Source: Litoribacter populi (GTDB lineage Bacteria > Bacteroidota > Bacteroidia > Cytophagales > Cyclobacteriaceae). Taken from it: DNA of 64,000 bases. The position numbers were made by a program, and so were the translations under genes. Of this stretch, positions 7,781 through 14,135 are shown in pieces. Numbering within the stretch: position 1 is the first letter of the stretch; each line of letters opens with the position of its first letter. The stretch is from NCBI RefSeq assembly GCF_007483685.1, contig NZ_VMKN01000001.1, positions 558,001 through 622,000 on the forward strand. The letters run 5' to 3'. The notes beneath the pieces were generated by a model. The model made no database searches and was not told where the DNA came from. It saw nothing but the letters and a program-made list of their open reading frames with translations.

Positions 7781-8038
7781 ATGATAGCTGCAAATTATTC
7801 GGAATTTCGTTCAAATATGAAAGACTATTTGGATCGGGTTGAAGAAGATAAAGAGACTTTGATCTTAAAAAGAGGGACTGGTAAAGGTGCAGTTATTATT
7901 TCATTGGAAGAATATAACTCGATAATGGAAACCCTTCATCTTCTCAGCTCTCAGGCAAATGCTAAAAGGTTGTTTGAATCAATCGAGCAGATGAAGACAG
8001 GGAAGTCTTTTGAGAAAAAACTTATTGATGATAAATGA
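7781..8038 (+). CDS. yefM: Antitoxin of the YefM/Phd family
   Basis: This 85-residue protein has the Phd/YefM N-terminal fold (a strand, then FRSNMKDYLDRVEEDKETLILKR with a following VIISLEEYNSIMETLHLL segment), which binds DNA, and an acidic/basic C-terminal tail that wraps the toxin. It would neutralise YoeB and repress the operon through the GTAC-rich operator just upstream. Its stop overlaps the toxin start by four bases (ATGA), the usual coupling. The pair sits between a prenyltransferase gene and purN, a typical random landing place for such modules. Confidence 0.9.
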   Translation: MIAANYSEFRSNMKDYLDRVEEDKETLILKRGTGKGAVIISLEEYNSIMETLHLLSSQANAKRLFESIEQMKTGKSFEKKLIDDK

Positions 8039-8295
8039 GAATAGTTTTTACTGAGAATGCTTGGGAAGACTATGTTTCATGGCAAAAAGACGATAGAAAA
8101 AGTCTCAAAAAGATTAATGAGTTAATCAAGGCAATCATTAGAGATCCATATGAGGGGATAGGGAAGCCAGAACCTTTAAAATATGAATTGGCTGGTTTTT
8201 GGTCCAGACGCATAGAAAGGGAGCATCGGTTAATGTACCAAGTGCAAACTGATGAGGTTCTAATTTATGCTTGTAAGTTTCACTATGATTTGTAA
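8035..8295 (+). CDS. yoeB: YoeB-family mRNA interferase toxin
   Basis: YoeB is a ribosome-dependent endoribonuclease that cuts mRNA in the A site. The 86-residue product has the normal length, and the residues known to act in E. coli YoeB are conserved at the same numbers: Glu46 (in GKPEPLKYEL), Arg65 (in EREHRLMYQV) and His83 (in ACKFHYDL). This makes an intact, active toxin likely. The start overlaps the antitoxin stop by four bases, so the toxin is translated after its antitoxin. Confidence 0.93.
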   Translation: MRIVFTENAWEDYVSWQKDDRKSLKKINELIKAIIRDPYEGIGKPEPLKYELAGFWSRRIEREHRLMYQVQTDEVLIYACKFHYDL

Positions 8296-9087: not shown

Positions 9088-10614
9088 ATGGCTGTAAAGA
9101 AAATCCAATCCGCACTCATTTCCGTTTTTTACAAGGACAACCTTGAGCCTATCGTGGCTTTGCTCAAAGAGCAGGGGGTGAAGATCTATTCCACGGGAGG
9201 TACCCAAAAGTTTATCGAAGAGCAGGGAGCCAAGGTTACGGCCGTGGAGGACCTGACAGGTTATCCCTCCATTTTTGGCGGTAGGGTAAAGACATTGCAT
9301 CCCATGGTTTTTGGAGGCATACTTCACAGAAGAGACAATGAGGGTGATAAGGATCAGGCAGCCGAATATGGAATTCCTCCAATCGATCTTGTTATCGTGG
9401 ATCTTTATCCTTTTGAGGAAACAGTCGCATCCGGTGCCACTGATGCAGATATTATTGAAAAAATAGACATTGGAGGTATCTCTCTTATCAGAGCGGCCGC
9501 TAAAAACTTCCAAGACGTGACCATAATCGCCTCCAAAGACCAATATGGTGAATTGGAGGAAAGGCTAAAAGCCAATGGTGGCGGAACCACTCTGGAGGAT
9601 AGAAAATACTTTGCTGCCCAAGCGTTTAAAGTATCTTCCAATTACGATACCCACATATTCAACTATTTCAACCAAACAGAGGAAATCCCTTCTCTGAAAG
9701 TTTCCGAATCCAATGCAAAAGCTTTGAGATATGGGGAAAACCCGCACCAAAAGGCACACTTCTACGGCAAGTTGGAAGACTTGTTTGACCAACTTAACGG
9801 TAAGGAGCTTTCCTACAACAACCTAGTTGATGTGGATGCAGCGGTAAACTTAATTGCTGAGTTTGAAGGAGAAACCGCCTTTGCAATCCTTAAGCATACA
9901 AATGCCTGTGGAATTGCCACTGGTTCTTCTGTGCAGGATGCTTACAAAAAAGCCTTTGCTGCAGATACATTGTCAGCTTTTGGGGGGGTATTGATTACCA
10001 ACCAAAAAGTGGATAAAGCCGCTGCTGAAGAAATGCATAGCCTTTTCTTTGAAGTTTTGATTGCCCCAGAATTTGACCAAGATGCTTTGGAAGTACTGAT
10101 GGGTAAAAAGAATCGAATCTTGCTTCAACAGAAGATGAACCTTCAGGGAACCAAGCAGATTAAAACCTTGCTGAATGGAATTATTGAGCAGGATAAGGAC
10201 CTTCAGACCGAGACTAAAGAAGATTTCAAGGTAGTGACCAAAAAAGCCCCTTCTGAGGAAGAGAAAGATGCTTTAGTATTCGCGGCCAAAGTTTGTAAAC
10301 ACACTAAATCCAACACCATCATCCTTAGCAACCACAATCAGATGTTTGCCAGTGGAGTAGGGCAGACTTCCAGGGTTGATGCTTTAAAGCAAGCAATTGA
10401 AAAAGCCAAGCATTTCGGCTTTGATCTGAATGGAGCGGTAATGGCATCTGATGCCTTCTTCCCATTCCCAGACTGCGTGGAGATAGCTTCCAAAGAGGGG
10501 ATTTCCTCAGTGGTGCAGCCAGGCGGATCCATTAAGGACCAAGACAGCATCGACTTCTGCGACCAAGCCGGTATGAGCATGGTGCTGACTGGAGTGAGAC
10601 ATTTCAAGCATTAA
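9088..10614 (+). CDS. purH: Bifunctional AICAR formyltransferase / IMP cyclohydrolase PurH
   Basis: PurH performs the last two steps of IMP synthesis. The 508-residue product has the N-terminal MGS-like cyclohydrolase domain (LISVFYKDNLEPIV, IYSTGGTQKFIEEQG, GGRVKTLHPMVFGGIL) and the C-terminal formyltransferase domain with the conserved ILKHTNACGIA segment (about residue 270) and a normal end ([17 protein letters not shown]). The gene is intact. A decayed second copy of its last roughly 90 codons plus its terminator lies at 12985-13298, on the far side of an AT-rich insert. Confidence 0.96.
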   Translation: MAVKKIQSALISVFYKDNLEPIVALLKEQGVKIYSTGGTQKFIEEQGAKVTAVEDLTGYPSIFGGRVKTLHPMVFGGILHRRDNEGDKDQAAEYGIPPIDLVIVDLYPFEETVASGATDADIIEKIDIGGISLIRAAAKNFQDVTIIASKDQYGELEERLKANGGGTTLEDRKYFAAQAFKVSSNYDTHIFNYFNQTEEIPSLKVSESNAKALRYGENPHQKAHFYGKLEDLFDQLNGKELSYNNLVDVDAAVNLIAEFEGETAFAILKHTNACGIATGSSVQDAYKKAFAADTLSAFGGVLITNQKVDKAAAEEMHSLFFEVLIAPEFDQDALEVLMGKKNRILLQQKMNLQGTKQIKTLLNGIIEQDKDLQTETKEDFKVVTKKAPSEEEKDALVFAAKVCKHTKSNTIILSNHNQMFASGVGQTSRVDALKQAIEKAKHFGFDLNGAVMASDAFFPFPDCVEIASKEGISSVVQPGGSIKDQDSIDFCDQAGMSMVLTGVRHFKH

Positions 10615-10648
10615 AGAGCATCCTCAATATATGAGTTAGTTAGAAAAG

Positions 10649-10675
10649 CACCTCGGGAGACTGGGGTGTTTTTTT
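10649..10675 (+). terminator. purH terminator
   Basis: CACCTC (10649-10654) pairs with GGGGTG (10663-10668) around an 8-base loop and is followed by seven T. The same hairpin, with one loop-side change, recurs at 13271-13298 behind the purH remnant. Confidence 0.7.
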
Positions 10676-11080
10676 ATCAATCAAGGCTTTGTTCGCCATC
10701 TTTGTACTGAGAATTTAGGTTCAGTATTATTACTAACCAATTCCTTATCTTGATATGATCCTCATAAGGGTACAATCAATATTTAAGTTCAAAATTTAGA
10801 TTTAACTGATTGATTATCATAATGATATATGAAAAGTGCAATATTTTGCCTAACTTCTCATTCTTGATTATTTCAATTAATTTATTATTCTTCATTAAAC
10901 AATATTTAGGAGTCAGGTATTTACCACTCATGATGAGCTTAGAAAATTTTGTGAGATTTATTTTGCGTATAATTTTTTTTTTTTTAGTTTTCCGTAACTA
11001 AAGTTAGCGGCTAAAGTTTAGTAAAGCGGAACTCGAAAAGCTTATAACAGAGTAGAGATTTTCTATTTAATATTTTAGAT
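10676..11080. other. AT-rich leader region before the secreted-peptide gene
   Basis: These 405 bases show no convincing gene. An open frame at 10810-11001 starts at TTG and encodes only a low-complexity hydrophobic string, typical of chance AT-rich sequence. A 14-base T run precedes position 10986. A short tandem repeat (CTAAAGTTAGCGG at 10998-11010, then CTAAAGTTTAG at 11011-11021) lies 60-80 bases before the peptide gene and could be a regulatory site. The base composition is visibly more AT-rich than in the flanking purine genes. Confidence 0.5.
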
Positions 11081-11347
11081 ATGTCTAAAATTAAATTTTC
11101 TTTCGCAGCATTTTTTTTTATAATGCTTTTAAACCTTTCATTTGCCAGCGATTCTGTGTTGATGAAGTCATGTGATTCAGGAGGGCCTGGCTCTGATAGT
11201 TGTTCTTCATCCTACTCCGTGGAGGGTTCAGTAGCAGGTTCTGGTGGCGGAACCTCCTCAACGGCAAGTATTTCATGTAAAGAAGGTTATTATTCCTGTT
11301 GTAATTCAGGTCCTACTGGAGCTACAGCTAGTTGTGAACAAGAGTAG
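11081..11347 (+). CDS. Small secreted peptide, six cysteines, Ser/Gly-rich
   Basis: The 88-residue product has a signal peptide (residues 1-22, hydrophobic core, likely cleavage after FA before SDS). The mature part of about 66 residues is rich in Ser and Gly and contains six cysteines at 31, 41, 66, 73, 74 and 85, including a CC pair in CKEGYYSCCNSG. An even number of cysteines outside the cytoplasm suggests three disulfides. It matches no enzyme family I know. Short Cys-rich or NVEALA-type exported peptides placed before six-bladed-propeller lipoproteins occur in Bacteroidota, and the same order is seen here with the gene at 11423. The function is unknown; secreted signal, toxin or natural-product precursor are all open. 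Confidence 0.75.
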   Translation: MSKIKFSFAAFFFIMLLNLSFASDSVLMKSCDSGGPGSDSCSSSYSVEGSVAGSGGGTSSTASISCKEGYYSCCNSGPTGATASCEQE

Positions 11348-11355
11348 ATTTATAT

Positions 11356-11386
11356 TATTGGCCGAAACAAATTGTTTCGGCCAATA
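11356..11386. promoter_or_regulatory. Perfect 15-bp inverted repeat between peptide and lipoprotein genes
   Basis: TATTGGCCGAAACAA (11356-11370) is followed after one base by its exact reverse complement TTGTTTCGGCCAATA (11372-11386). Downstream on the plus strand comes a run of A rather than T, so it is not a standard intrinsic terminator. It may be an RNA hairpin protecting the peptide mRNA 3' end or limiting read-through, or a protein-binding site. Confidence 0.6.
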
Positions 11387-11422
11387 AAAAAAAATATTCT
11401 ATTGTCTTTATTATATAATTCT

Positions 11423-12586
11423 ATGATGATTAAATTAAGGTTTTTGTTAATATTATTTATTTTTACCCTTAGCTGCAGTGATAAAAATGGGGAGCAATTG
11501 GGGTATACACTTATAAATGTCCATAACCTGAAGGATGATGGGAATAAGCTGATTGAAATGGTTTCTGAATATGAGTTAATTCCTCTTCAGTATGCAGGCG
11601 CCGAAAGCCTGGTTAGTATGATTATTAAAACAGAGATCACCTCTCAGAATATATATCTTTTGTGTTCAAGATCTAATGGTTCAAAATACCTGTTAATTTT
11701 CGATATTGAAGGAGATTTTAGAAGGAAAATAGAGGAAATTAGTTCCGATGAATTGATTTCAAGTAAAGTAAAGTATTTTGCTCTTGATAATGATGGGCAA
11801 TTAATAATTTTGGATGATAAAAATAATTTACTCTTTTTAGATGAGAACTATGATTACCACATGCATACCTCACTTCCATTTAAATTTGATACATTCTATA
11901 AAAATGGAGAACATTTTTTAAGTTACGCAAATCTTCATGCTTTTGATTTACAGCCTGATAGTCTTTTTTTTAATCTTATGGTGGTAAATGAGCATTTTGA
12001 ATTGGAAAATAAATACATGCCCTTTGAAATAAACGTCGGAGAAACTCGCTACCATAATAGAATTCATGGAAATATTCAGCCAAATTTGAATGGTTTCCTT
12101 TTTACTGAATTTCTTAATGATACCATATATGAGGTTGACGAGCAAAGTATGATGCCGAAATATGTATATAACTTTGGTAAAGATAGAGTCGATAAAGAGG
12201 GATTTGAGAATGTACATATTTCTCCTTTTTCACCTATACTTGTAGAAAAATTTAAGTGGGGATTAAACAGCCCAATAGAAACTGAGAAATATTTATTTGC
12301 TCATTATTGGGATAAGAAAACACCAAAAGGAATTCTTTATAATAAAACAAATAATACAACTGCTGTTCATAATCCGATGAATCTTTTGGAGGATCAAGAT
12401 ATTATACCTTGGCCTAAAATTCATAGAGACGGTTATTTTTACGGTTATTTCACTGAAGGGGATTTTGGGGGTATGGATATTGACAGGATAATCAATTATC
12501 CTAAAACTTCTTCAGTTAAACAAATCTATGAACATATACAGGCTAATGCAAACCCGGTTTTTGTCAAATATAAAATAAATAATTAA
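11423..12586 (+). CDS. Lipoprotein resembling six-bladed beta-propeller proteins
   Basis: The product of 387 residues begins with a lipoprotein signal: basic start, hydrophobic core and a lipobox TLSC with the lipidated Cys at residue 18. The rest is dominated by short beta-type segments (for example YLLIFDIEGDFRRKIEE, KYFALDNDGQLIILDDKNNLLFLDE), the pattern of the six-bladed TolB-like propeller lipoproteins of Bacteroidota. The family call is by overall look, not by an exact motif. Start choice: a longer frame from TTG at 11372 would begin inside the hairpin at 11356-11386, so ATG 11423 (or 11426) is used. Codon use is AT-rich, unlike the neighbouring core genes, which suggests recent transfer. 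Confidence 0.65.
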   Translation: MMIKLRFLLILFIFTLSCSDKNGEQLGYTLINVHNLKDDGNKLIEMVSEYELIPLQYAGAESLVSMIIKTEITSQNIYLLCSRSNGSKYLLIFDIEGDFRRKIEEISSDELISSKVKYFALDNDGQLIILDDKNNLLFLDENYDYHMHTSLPFKFDTFYKNGEHFLSYANLHAFDLQPDSLFFNLMVVNEHFELENKYMPFEINVGETRYHNRIHGNIQPNLNGFLFTEFLNDTIYEVDEQSMMPKYVYNFGKDRVDKEGFENVHISPFSPILVEKFKWGLNSPIETEKYLFAHYWDKKTPKGILYNKTNNTTAVHNPMNLLEDQDIIPWPKIHRDGYFYGYFTEGDFGGMDIDRIINYPKTSSVKQIYEHIQANANPVFVKYKINN

Positions 12587-12594
12587 TTTTAATT

Positions 12595-12927
12595 ATGAAA
12601 CTAATTGTTGTATTGTTTAGTTTAATATTCAGTTATAAATCTACTAATGAACCTTTTCATGAGGTTAGGATTGATTCAAACACCACAAAAGAGGAACTTG
12701 AGGAGAAAATTAAAAACGCAGAAAAACTTGGATTGCTAATTGACTTGCCTTATGCCACTTATTTGGAGAGCGGAAAAGTTTCTGTTTTGCAGATTAAAGC
12801 CGAAGTAAAGGAAGTGGGTAATGCGTCTTCTACATATGATTTTAATAGTGAATACACTTGTGTAGTTGTATTTAAAGATTTACGGATTAATTCAAAAAGT
12901 GCGTTTGGTTTTAAAGAATGTGAATAG
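12595..12927 (+). CDS. Small exported protein of unknown function
   Basis: This 110-residue protein starts eight bases after the lipoprotein gene and so is likely co-transcribed. It has a short hydrophobic N terminus (MKLIVVLFSLIFSYKS) that looks like a signal peptide. Residues from about 26 to 70 (IDSNTTKEELEEKIKNAEKL and a later YLESGKVSVLQIKAEV) resemble a small module found C-terminally in some Bacteroidota M56 peptidase and TonB-type proteins: a strand, a Thr-Thr-x-x-Glu-Leu helix, then a strand with Gly-Lys. Two cysteines (in the YTCVVVF segment and near the end) may pair. Function unknown. Confidence 0.6.
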   Translation: MKLIVVLFSLIFSYKSTNEPFHEVRIDSNTTKEELEEKIKNAEKLGLLIDLPYATYLESGKVSVLQIKAEVKEVGNASSTYDFNSEYTCVVVFKDLRINSKSAFGFKECE

Positions 12928-12984
12928 GTTATTCATGAATTTAGTTAATTAAAAATAGCTTCATAGGCATCAGCGATCAATTGT

Positions 12985-13298
12985 GTGCAAGGTGTTGGTC
13001 CGAGTGGATACTTTGAAACAGGCAGTAGCCAAGGTCAAGGAGTTTGGATTTGAGCTGAAGGGAGGGTCTGACTTGGGATGCCTTCTTCCTTTCTCTGACT
13101 CTGTGGATATAGCTAAATAGGGGATTTCCTCAGTGTGCAGCCCGGGGATCCATTAAGGACCAAGACAGCATTGACTTCTGCGACCAACCCTGTATGAGCA
13201 TGGTGTTGACTGGAGTGAGACATTTCAAGCATTAAAGAGCATCCTCAATATATGAGTTAGTTTAGAAAAGCACCTAGGGAGACTGGGGTGTTTTTTTT
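12985..13298 (+). pseudogene. Decayed partial copy of the purH 3' end
   Basis: The sequence aligns with 10345-10677, the last part of purH with its 3' flank and terminator. The first section (to 13120) can still be read as a PurH-like peptide (RVDTLKQAVAKVKEFGFEL against RVDALKQAIEKAKHFGFDL) but is clearly diverged and ends in a TAG where purH has GAG. From 13121 onward the copy is almost base-identical, including the stop codon, the ATGAGTTAGTT spacer and the terminator, with a one-base deletion in GTGGTGCAG. No start or N-terminal part exists, so this cannot make an enzyme. It marks the right end of the accessory insert. Confidence 0.9.
13271..13298 (+). terminator. Second copy of the purH terminator
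   Basis: CACCTA and GGGGTG flank the same GGGAGACT loop as at 10649-10675, followed by eight T. It may still end transcripts coming from the accessory genes at 11081-12927. Confidence 0.6.
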
Positions 13299-13454
13299 TA
13301 TGCCAAAATAAAGGTCATAGAGCAGCACAGATTTGGTCATAGTGAATAGCAAAAGGAGAAGAGCTATGGTCGCTGAGAGAGAATCATGTGGTGGCCCCAA
13401 TCTAGCATATTAATCTCTGTGTACTCTGAGGCTCCGCGGTTATTAATTTTTCCA
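13299..13454. other. Gene-free stretch between purH remnant and lspA
   Basis: No gene is seen. The right part, 13412-13445, contains CTCTGTGTACTCTGAGGCTC and CGCGGTTATTAA, another member of the AACCGC-type intergenic repeat family in reverse orientation. Confidence 0.45.
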
Positions 13455-13493: not shown

Positions 13494-14135
13494 TTAAGAC
13501 TCTTTCAAAAACTGTTTTTGCACTTCATCTTCTTCGACTTCTCTTTCTGCCTGCGCTTTTTCATGCTCGAAGAATCTGGTTTGGAAGATTAGAATTATGG
13601 CTACTCCAACAAAGATAGCTGCATCCGCCACATTGAAGATTGGCCATAGCGCGGTATAGCTGCCTCCCCAAATCGGGACCCATTCGGGAAGGAAACCTTC
13701 CCAGATATCGATGTAAAACATGTCTACTACTTGGCCGTGAAACCAAGGTGAAGGAGCATTGTAGGGGGCGTTTTGAAGCAAAACTCCGTAAAATATACTG
13801 TCAATTAGGTTGCCGATAGCTCCGCCTAAGATCATAGCTATGCAGACAATATAGCCTACATGTGCTTTTTTGCTGATCAGATAATAAAGGTAGTACCCAA
13901 TACCAAACATGGCTATCAATCTGAAACTGGTCAGAATGAGTTTGCCGTATTCGGAGCCCAGCTGCATGCCAAAGGCCATCCCGGGATTGGTGGTGTAATG
14001 AAGCTTAAACCAATCGCCGATTACTTTGATCTGGCCCGGGGTTCCAAAATCCATTTGGGTGTGCACCAGAAGTTTGGACGCCTGGTCGATGATGATCACC
14101 AATAAGGCAATGCCAAAATATTTTAAATACTTCAT
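13494..14135 (-). CDS. lspA: Lipoprotein signal peptidase (signal peptidase II)
   Basis: LspA cleaves prolipoprotein signal peptides in the inner membrane, an activity needed for the many lipoproteins in this window. The 213-residue product has four membrane segments and the two catalytic aspartates in their usual motifs: Asp138 in GQVVDMFYIDIW and Asp171 in WPIFNVADAAIF. The GGAIGNLID motif is also present. It is longer than the typical 160-170 residues because of an insertion between about 115 and 160 and an acidic C-terminal tail of some 25 residues, both common in Bacteroidota. It follows ileS by 71 bases on the same strand, a linkage known from many bacteria. Confidence 0.95.
   Translation of the reverse strand: MKYLKYFGIALLVIIIDQASKLLVHTQMDFGTPGQIKVIGDWFKLHYTTNPGMAFGMQLGSEYGKLILTSFRLIAMFGIGYYLYYLISKKAHVGYIVCIAMILGGAIGNLIDSIFYGVLLQNAPYNAPSPWFHGQVVDMFYIDIWEGFLPEWVPIWGGSYTALWPIFNVADAAIFVGVAIILIFQTRFFEHEKAQAEREVEEDEVQKQFLKES

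Follow-up and report, generated by a model that had tools for sequence, protein, structure and literature searches.

A hybrid purH 3' end behind a low-GC island in Litoribacter populi, with an apparently foreign first half and a native second half

Introduction

In bacterial genomes direct repeats can undergo gene conversion, by which part of a diverged repeat becomes identical to its partner. Repeats of another kind arise when incoming DNA is anchored by homology on one side, as in an E. coli integration assay in which a PCR product for the duplicated target end was obtained from 56 of 60 clones, and in which 14 sequenced integrants carried duplications of 109-950 bp (PMC3240628). In T6SS effector genes displaced 3' ends lie behind inserted modules, and the rhs genes are cited in the same connection (PMC5361080; PMC2935791). 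Our literature search found no paper on purH as an integration site for genomic islands with duplication.

The locus described here carries such a repeated gene end. Behind an intact purH and a small island of low GC content lies a second purH 3' end, which is dead, and which begins as apparently foreign sequence and finishes as a copy of the native end. What has to be explained is how these two halves came to be joined, and whether the island came with them.

The purH locus and its remnant

The window is the whole stretch of DNA that was analysed, 64,000 nucleotides of Litoribacter populi (contig NZ_VMKN01000001.1, positions 558,001 to 622,000). The features of the purH region, in window coordinates, are as follows.

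9088..10611, plus strand: intact purH, 508 aa (open reading frame; Pfam AICARFT_IMPCHas and MGS)
10489..10677, plus strand: native purH 3' end, 3' UTR and terminator, source of the near-identical half (alignments)
10678..12965, no strand: low-GC island separating purH from the remnant, with no counterpart between purH and lspA in L. ruber or Anditalea
12966-13297, plus strand: dead purH 3' piece (the remnant), behind the low-GC island and before lspA
12966..13114, plus strand: apparently foreign, decayed purH fragment (first half), codons about 414-467, frame broken
13103..13123, plus strand: range supported for the breakpoint between foreign and native sequence, with 13109 as the best position (change-point fit)
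13115..13297, plus strand: second half, copied recently from the 3' end, UTR and terminator of the resident purH and now decaying, with 7/182 substitutions and small indels
13494..14135, minus strand: lspA, the downstream boundary of the insertion site (open reading frame; purH-lspA adjacency in Anditalea)

The resident purH looks vertically inherited in Litoribacter. Its coding tail is nearest to that of L. ruber (0.146), the only other Litoribacter genome compared, and then to that of Anditalea (0.154), its 3' UTR and terminator are of the L. ruber type and unlike those of Anditalea, and its third-position divergence from L. ruber is 0.49, with values of 0.40-0.50 for five neighbouring genes. 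The idea that the resident gene is itself foreign is not supported, its divergence from L. ruber being like that of its neighbours.

An earlier note, made from the letters of the window, had placed a purH remnant at 12985-13298. This placement is borne out, with homology beginning about 19 bases earlier, at about 12966, and the purH terminator occurs again at the end of the remnant, after which comes the gene on the other strand that we take to be lspA. The PurH-like peptide that the note had read in the first half is legible in pieces (QL-A, GVG, RVD-LKQA, FGFELKG and DAFF), and the same half also shows frame breaks and changes at conserved residues.

Repetition of the purH coding end behind purH was found only in the window and in its own overlapping locus (L157) among 136 purH loci that extend 500 nt or more beyond the gene, many of which overlap or share genomes. 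Two others, L057 and L126, have only short repeats, taken from the region of their own stop codon and 3' UTR; in L126 these include tandem copies, about 40-62 bases long, of its own purH 3' UTR downstream of the gene. As to a plasmid origin, neither the remnant nor the beta-propeller gene of the island had a match among 72,556 plasmid records.

The step between the halves

The two halves of the remnant stand at quite different distances from the resident gene. Between 12966 and 13114, 44 of 149 aligned bases differ, in addition to gaps that break the frame, with differences at 11/51, 10/50 and 23/48 of the first, second and third codon positions, respectively. Between 13115 and 13297 just 7 of 182 aligned bases are substituted, alongside a few small indels (Fisher test of the difference between the halves, P = 9e-11). 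When a change point was fitted to 331 aligned sites, the best switch fell at 13109, with a 2-lnL range of 13103-13123; the lnL rose by 24.1, and 2000 permutations never gave more than 11.4. The mosaic that the earlier note had described, a diverged first half followed by a near-identical second, is thereby confirmed, and the breakpoint of 13121 given there falls within the supported range.

Could such a step simply reflect intrinsic conservation of the purH 3' end? This explanation was rejected. Over the coding part of the same columns the resident compared with L. ruber or Anditalea gains only 2.8 and 3.4, with no comparable step, so that the gene itself does not account for the step. The ratio of first-half to second-half divergence is 5.8 for remnant and resident and at most 1.4 for the resident and any other of 112 purH rows, over which variability averages 0.31 in the second half and 0.26 in the first. 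The passage from diverged to near-identical sequence thus occurs sharply within one repeat, as in gene conversion, and the foreign-looking and native purH sequences are joined in register near codon 466, as at a homologous joint.

The second half as a recent native copy

The coding part of the second half is 5% different from the resident, and the next nearest purH is at 18%. At its six coding substitutions the resident has the base of Anditalea in all six cases and that of L. ruber in five (L. ruber carries a third base at 10551), and because of these agreements the remnant is the changed copy. The remnant bases at 10567 and 10551 are the commonest among the 112 other purH (74/112 and 54/112, respectively), so that polarity at these two positions depends upon the two nearest relatives. 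The terminator holds a seventh substitution, at which resident and L. ruber share the base as judged by eye, and the UTR and terminator of the second half follow the L. ruber pattern, unlike that of Anditalea. The native end was thus, we infer, copied into the remnant, and recently by comparison with the split from L. ruber, in keeping with the earlier note, in which the remnant is almost base-identical to the resident up to its terminator.

Ancestry of the first half

The first half has a different relationship to the resident. Among 113 distinct purH rows the resident is only the ninth nearest (0.295, tied with one other), and the nearest are L050 and Anditalea, both at 0.282. For finer analysis 136 sites were kept after five scrambled codons had been dropped, the remnant row being aligned by hand. 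Over these sites remnant and resident differ at 37, of which 21 are third positions, and this third-position excess (21/44 versus 16/92 elsewhere) would arise with P = 0.00045 if a resident copy had decayed uniformly. At the 32 sites where resident and Anditalea differ, the remnant agrees with the resident at 12, with Anditalea at 14 and with neither at 6; none of 20000 uniformly decayed resident copies reached either the resident or the Anditalea match count. Rare shared bases were uninformative, the remnant having 0/3 of the rare resident and 0/4 of the rare Anditalea states.

When the fragment was attached to all 223 branches in IQ-TREE, the Anditalea andensis branch was best and the resident branch came 16th, 6.6 lnL lower, the latter not being rejected by the AU (0.27) or KH (0.064) test. 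Because this test treats the pseudogene as constrained, a placement of our own was written, in which the branch attached to the 113-purH tree consists of a constrained segment (t1) and an unconstrained one (t2), with significance from a parametric bootstrap. With the 136 sites, a copy of the resident followed by decay falls 17.5 lnL below the best placement (0/100 bootstraps), the Litoribacter stem with decay only 7.2 (0/100), and a position inside Litoribacter with both segments, which allows for functional divergence, 10.9 (0/100). The Litoribacter stem with both segments falls 3.95 below (3/100) and is rejected only marginally. With the 101 safest sites the resident copy, the decay-only stem and the position inside the genus are 15.5, 9.7 and 9.7 lnL lower, each in 0/80 bootstraps, and the stem with both segments 5.9 lower (1/80).

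Since resident and within-Litoribacter origins are both rejected, the first half looks foreign to the genus, with good statistical support on 136 hand-aligned sites. A simple recent duplication of the resident purH end, decaying unevenly by chance or through local hypermutation, fits the second half on its own; the first half rejects it by the 17.5 lnL and the third-position excess given above, as does the failure of any of the 20000 neutral copies to match Anditalea as often. It is refuted within the models used, and we give it almost no credence. The earlier note was correct in arguing that the remnant is no plain duplicate with even decay, the first half not being a decayed copy of the resident. 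It had also taken a diverged half closest to the resident and changed at random, including at many conserved positions, as what would speak against its reading. For the most part this is not what was found, with the resident ninth of 113 and third positions enriched; conserved positions are affected in part, 6 of 59 sites conserved at 98% having changed.

An older duplication in the Litoribacter line, before the split from L. ruber, is harder to dismiss. The copy would have diverged and died, its 3' half would have been homogenised afterwards, and L. ruber would have lost it. Its age is permitted by the third positions, at which remnant and resident differ at 23/48 and resident and L. ruber at a similar 25/54, and the stem placement is just 3.95 lnL under the best. 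Against this, the placements reject a within-genus origin (10.9) and neutral decay from the stem (7.2), and L. ruber has one purH match only, so that we regard this history as quite improbable.

The donor lineage probably lies within the same family, Cyclobacteriaceae. In the family, 57 of 390 genomes, that of L. populi included, match 12985-13140 at E <= 0.001, the strongest matches in other genomes being 72-76% identical and shorter, weaker ones reaching 85%. Alignment to many purH genes, by which the earlier note had hoped to show the donor, failed to name one: every one of 113 purH differs by at least 28% over the fragment, and the lineage that is placed best depends on the choice of sites, being Anditalea with 136 sites and L021 or an Algoriphagus-type branch with the 101 sites, in which the less certain first 15 codons are left out. 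L021 belongs to another family of the same order. The note's wider proposal, that a foreign purH end was joined to resident sequence by recombination or conversion, is therefore supported as regards a foreign first half and a native second half and falls short as regards the donor, which was not found.

The island and its insertion site

The island has a GC content of about 0.25-0.38, compared with about 0.38-0.48 in its flanks, is without a match in the 10-kb L. ruber locus, and was probably imported. It has three open reading frames on the plus strand.

11081..11347, plus strand: small Cys/Ser-rich peptide gene, signal-like start by inspection (open reading frame)
11420..12586, plus strand: 6-bladed beta-propeller protein (DUF5128; Pfam PF17170, E 3.5e-15)
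12595..12927, plus strand: small protein whose start looks signal-like on inspection, found next to the propeller in one other genus as well

The peptide gene had no match in Pfam or NCBIfam. Directly upstream of it, at 11023-11058, there is a match to the Rfam cis-regulatory motif DUF805b (RF02914, 41.6 bits). Homologues of the other two genes, about 40% identical, stand in unchanged order in another genus (G093:C2:96832-98318, in L159), where the match to the small protein (39%) is directly downstream of the propeller homologue. A cassette locus shared with that genome was considered and rejected, since the genes around its cassette are different ones and its purH sits on a separate contig; in that genome lspA is about 6 kb away from the cassette, in the opposite relative orientation to that in the window.

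In Anditalea purH is next to lspA with only a short gap between them, representing the empty site. In L. ruber a different insert occupies the gap (L033:3633-4264), soon after the T-run of the terminator, and consists of a small open reading frame without a Pfam match and one with a PIN domain, which together are toxin-antitoxin-like (VapBC-like). Different cargo is therefore found behind purH in both of the two Litoribacter genomes. The sequence past the T-run differs among the two window copies, L. ruber and Anditalea, and the island starts after the proximal T-run. A neighbourhood survey covered 82 purH loci, comprising 80 together with a second L. ruber locus and the window, many of them truncated. 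Within it lspA is in reach of purH in at least four rows (the window, two L. ruber rows and Anditalea), and 58 of the 82 loci match at least one of nine neighbour genes.

Two further observations concern the flanks. At 7781-8295 a YefM-YoeB-type toxin-antitoxin pair lies between purN and a gene that is presumably UbiA-like; the L. ruber locus has nothing that matches the pair, and Anditalea has only a yefM-like match. Between the remnant and lspA, at 13407-13451, a stretch of about 30-38 bases is matched in part, and with divergence, at four other places in the genome (78-90% identity; E is below 0.01 for two of them) and is perhaps a dispersed repeat.

This arrangement, with a gene 3' end repeated on both sides of an island and a different insert after the same terminator in L. 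ruber, is what site-specific insertion of a mobile element at the purH 3' end might give, the remnant then being the displaced old gene end. A displaced end should be native, and the first half is not; moreover, the repeat is about 183 bp rather than an exact short core, and no integrase or recombinase match was found in the three plus-strand open reading frames of the island that were scanned. Site-specific insertion is accordingly held to be very unlikely. A broader notion, that the purH terminator is a recurrent landing site in Litoribacter at which islands anchor by a purH end of their own, is a tentative one that we think doubtful. Under it, one event of the natural-transformation type would bring in the cargo and leave a foreign-native hybrid end as its signature, and hybrid gene ends could be used for genome-wide mapping of ancient imports.

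How the hybrid may have formed

Our preferred reading, which we consider somewhat more probable than not, is that foreign island DNA carrying a purH end entered the cell and recombined with the resident purH to give an intact purH, the island and a hybrid remnant. A small low-GC island linked to the purH 3' fragment of another lineage would have come into the Litoribacter line and been anchored on one side by in-register homology inside purH, at codons about 464-471, with the island side starting directly after the T-run of the resident terminator. The outcome would be a native purH followed by the island and by a dead purH piece that begins foreign and ends as a native 3' copy. Judged only by adjacency, the island and the foreign fragment would have arrived together. 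The native 3' copy probably stems from the same event or one close to it, whether through a crossover near the terminator, with conversion of about 190 bases in the distal copy, or through a one-sided joint that duplicated the target end. Some step of conversion or duplication is needed because a plain crossover of an all-foreign circle at 13109 leaves the proximal 3' end foreign, and the actual end is native.

The main competitor divides this history into two steps, in which the island came in long ago with a foreign purH end, complete with its own terminator, this end decayed, and a much later conversion from the resident purH overwrote its last 183 bases. The decay of the two halves is relevant here. 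The first half seems to have decayed for longer, with a best t2 of 0.1-0.15 as opposed to about 0.04 for the second half (7/182), and it has slightly more gaps. At a 98% threshold, near-invariant sites have changed at 6/59 in the first half and 0/43 in the second (P = 0.038), and the near-identical tract extends to the end of homology at the T-run. Conversely, fixing t2 at 0.04 costs 2.6 lnL, a value reached in 8/100 bootstraps, and since an equal decay time is not rejected one event is possible. Nor is the contrast in near-invariant sites significant at thresholds of 95% (7/64 versus 1/49, P = 0.13) or 100% (3/53 versus 0/38, P = 0.26), and two events are required in place of one. The decay evidence leans towards two steps without deciding the matter. 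The two-step history is a serious possibility, if on the whole an unlikely one, and yet a single event and a later gene conversion both fit and the two cannot be separated.

On the preferred reading the locus is a natural trace of the entry of a cargo island into a housekeeping locus without gene loss, in which the anchor from outside, the switch point and the copied native end are all still legible. Gene ends repeated around islands thus need not be plain duplicates or attachment sites, and testing the halves separately can expose imported anchors.

Comparison with known systems

As a scar left by recombination with imported DNA the hybrid purH is clear, if fairly ordinary, and the kind of process is known. 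As in direct-repeat gene conversion, one part of a repeat has been homogenised and the rest keeps its old divergence.

The locus also resembles homology-facilitated illegitimate recombination, in which there is a homologous anchor in one gene, and the duplication here is about 183 bp. Unlike in the assay (PMC3240628), the anchor in the window is a diverged, apparently foreign copy of the gene, and the event is natural and old.

With the displaced ends of T6SS effector and rhs genes (PMC5361080, PMC2935791) it shares a module inserted behind a gene and an orphan 3' end downstream, but purH is a housekeeping enzyme and the orphan end is apparently foreign in its first half. In the Rhs-type arrangement the orphan is the former end of the resident gene, whereas in the window the first half is rejected as resident or within-Litoribacter sequence.
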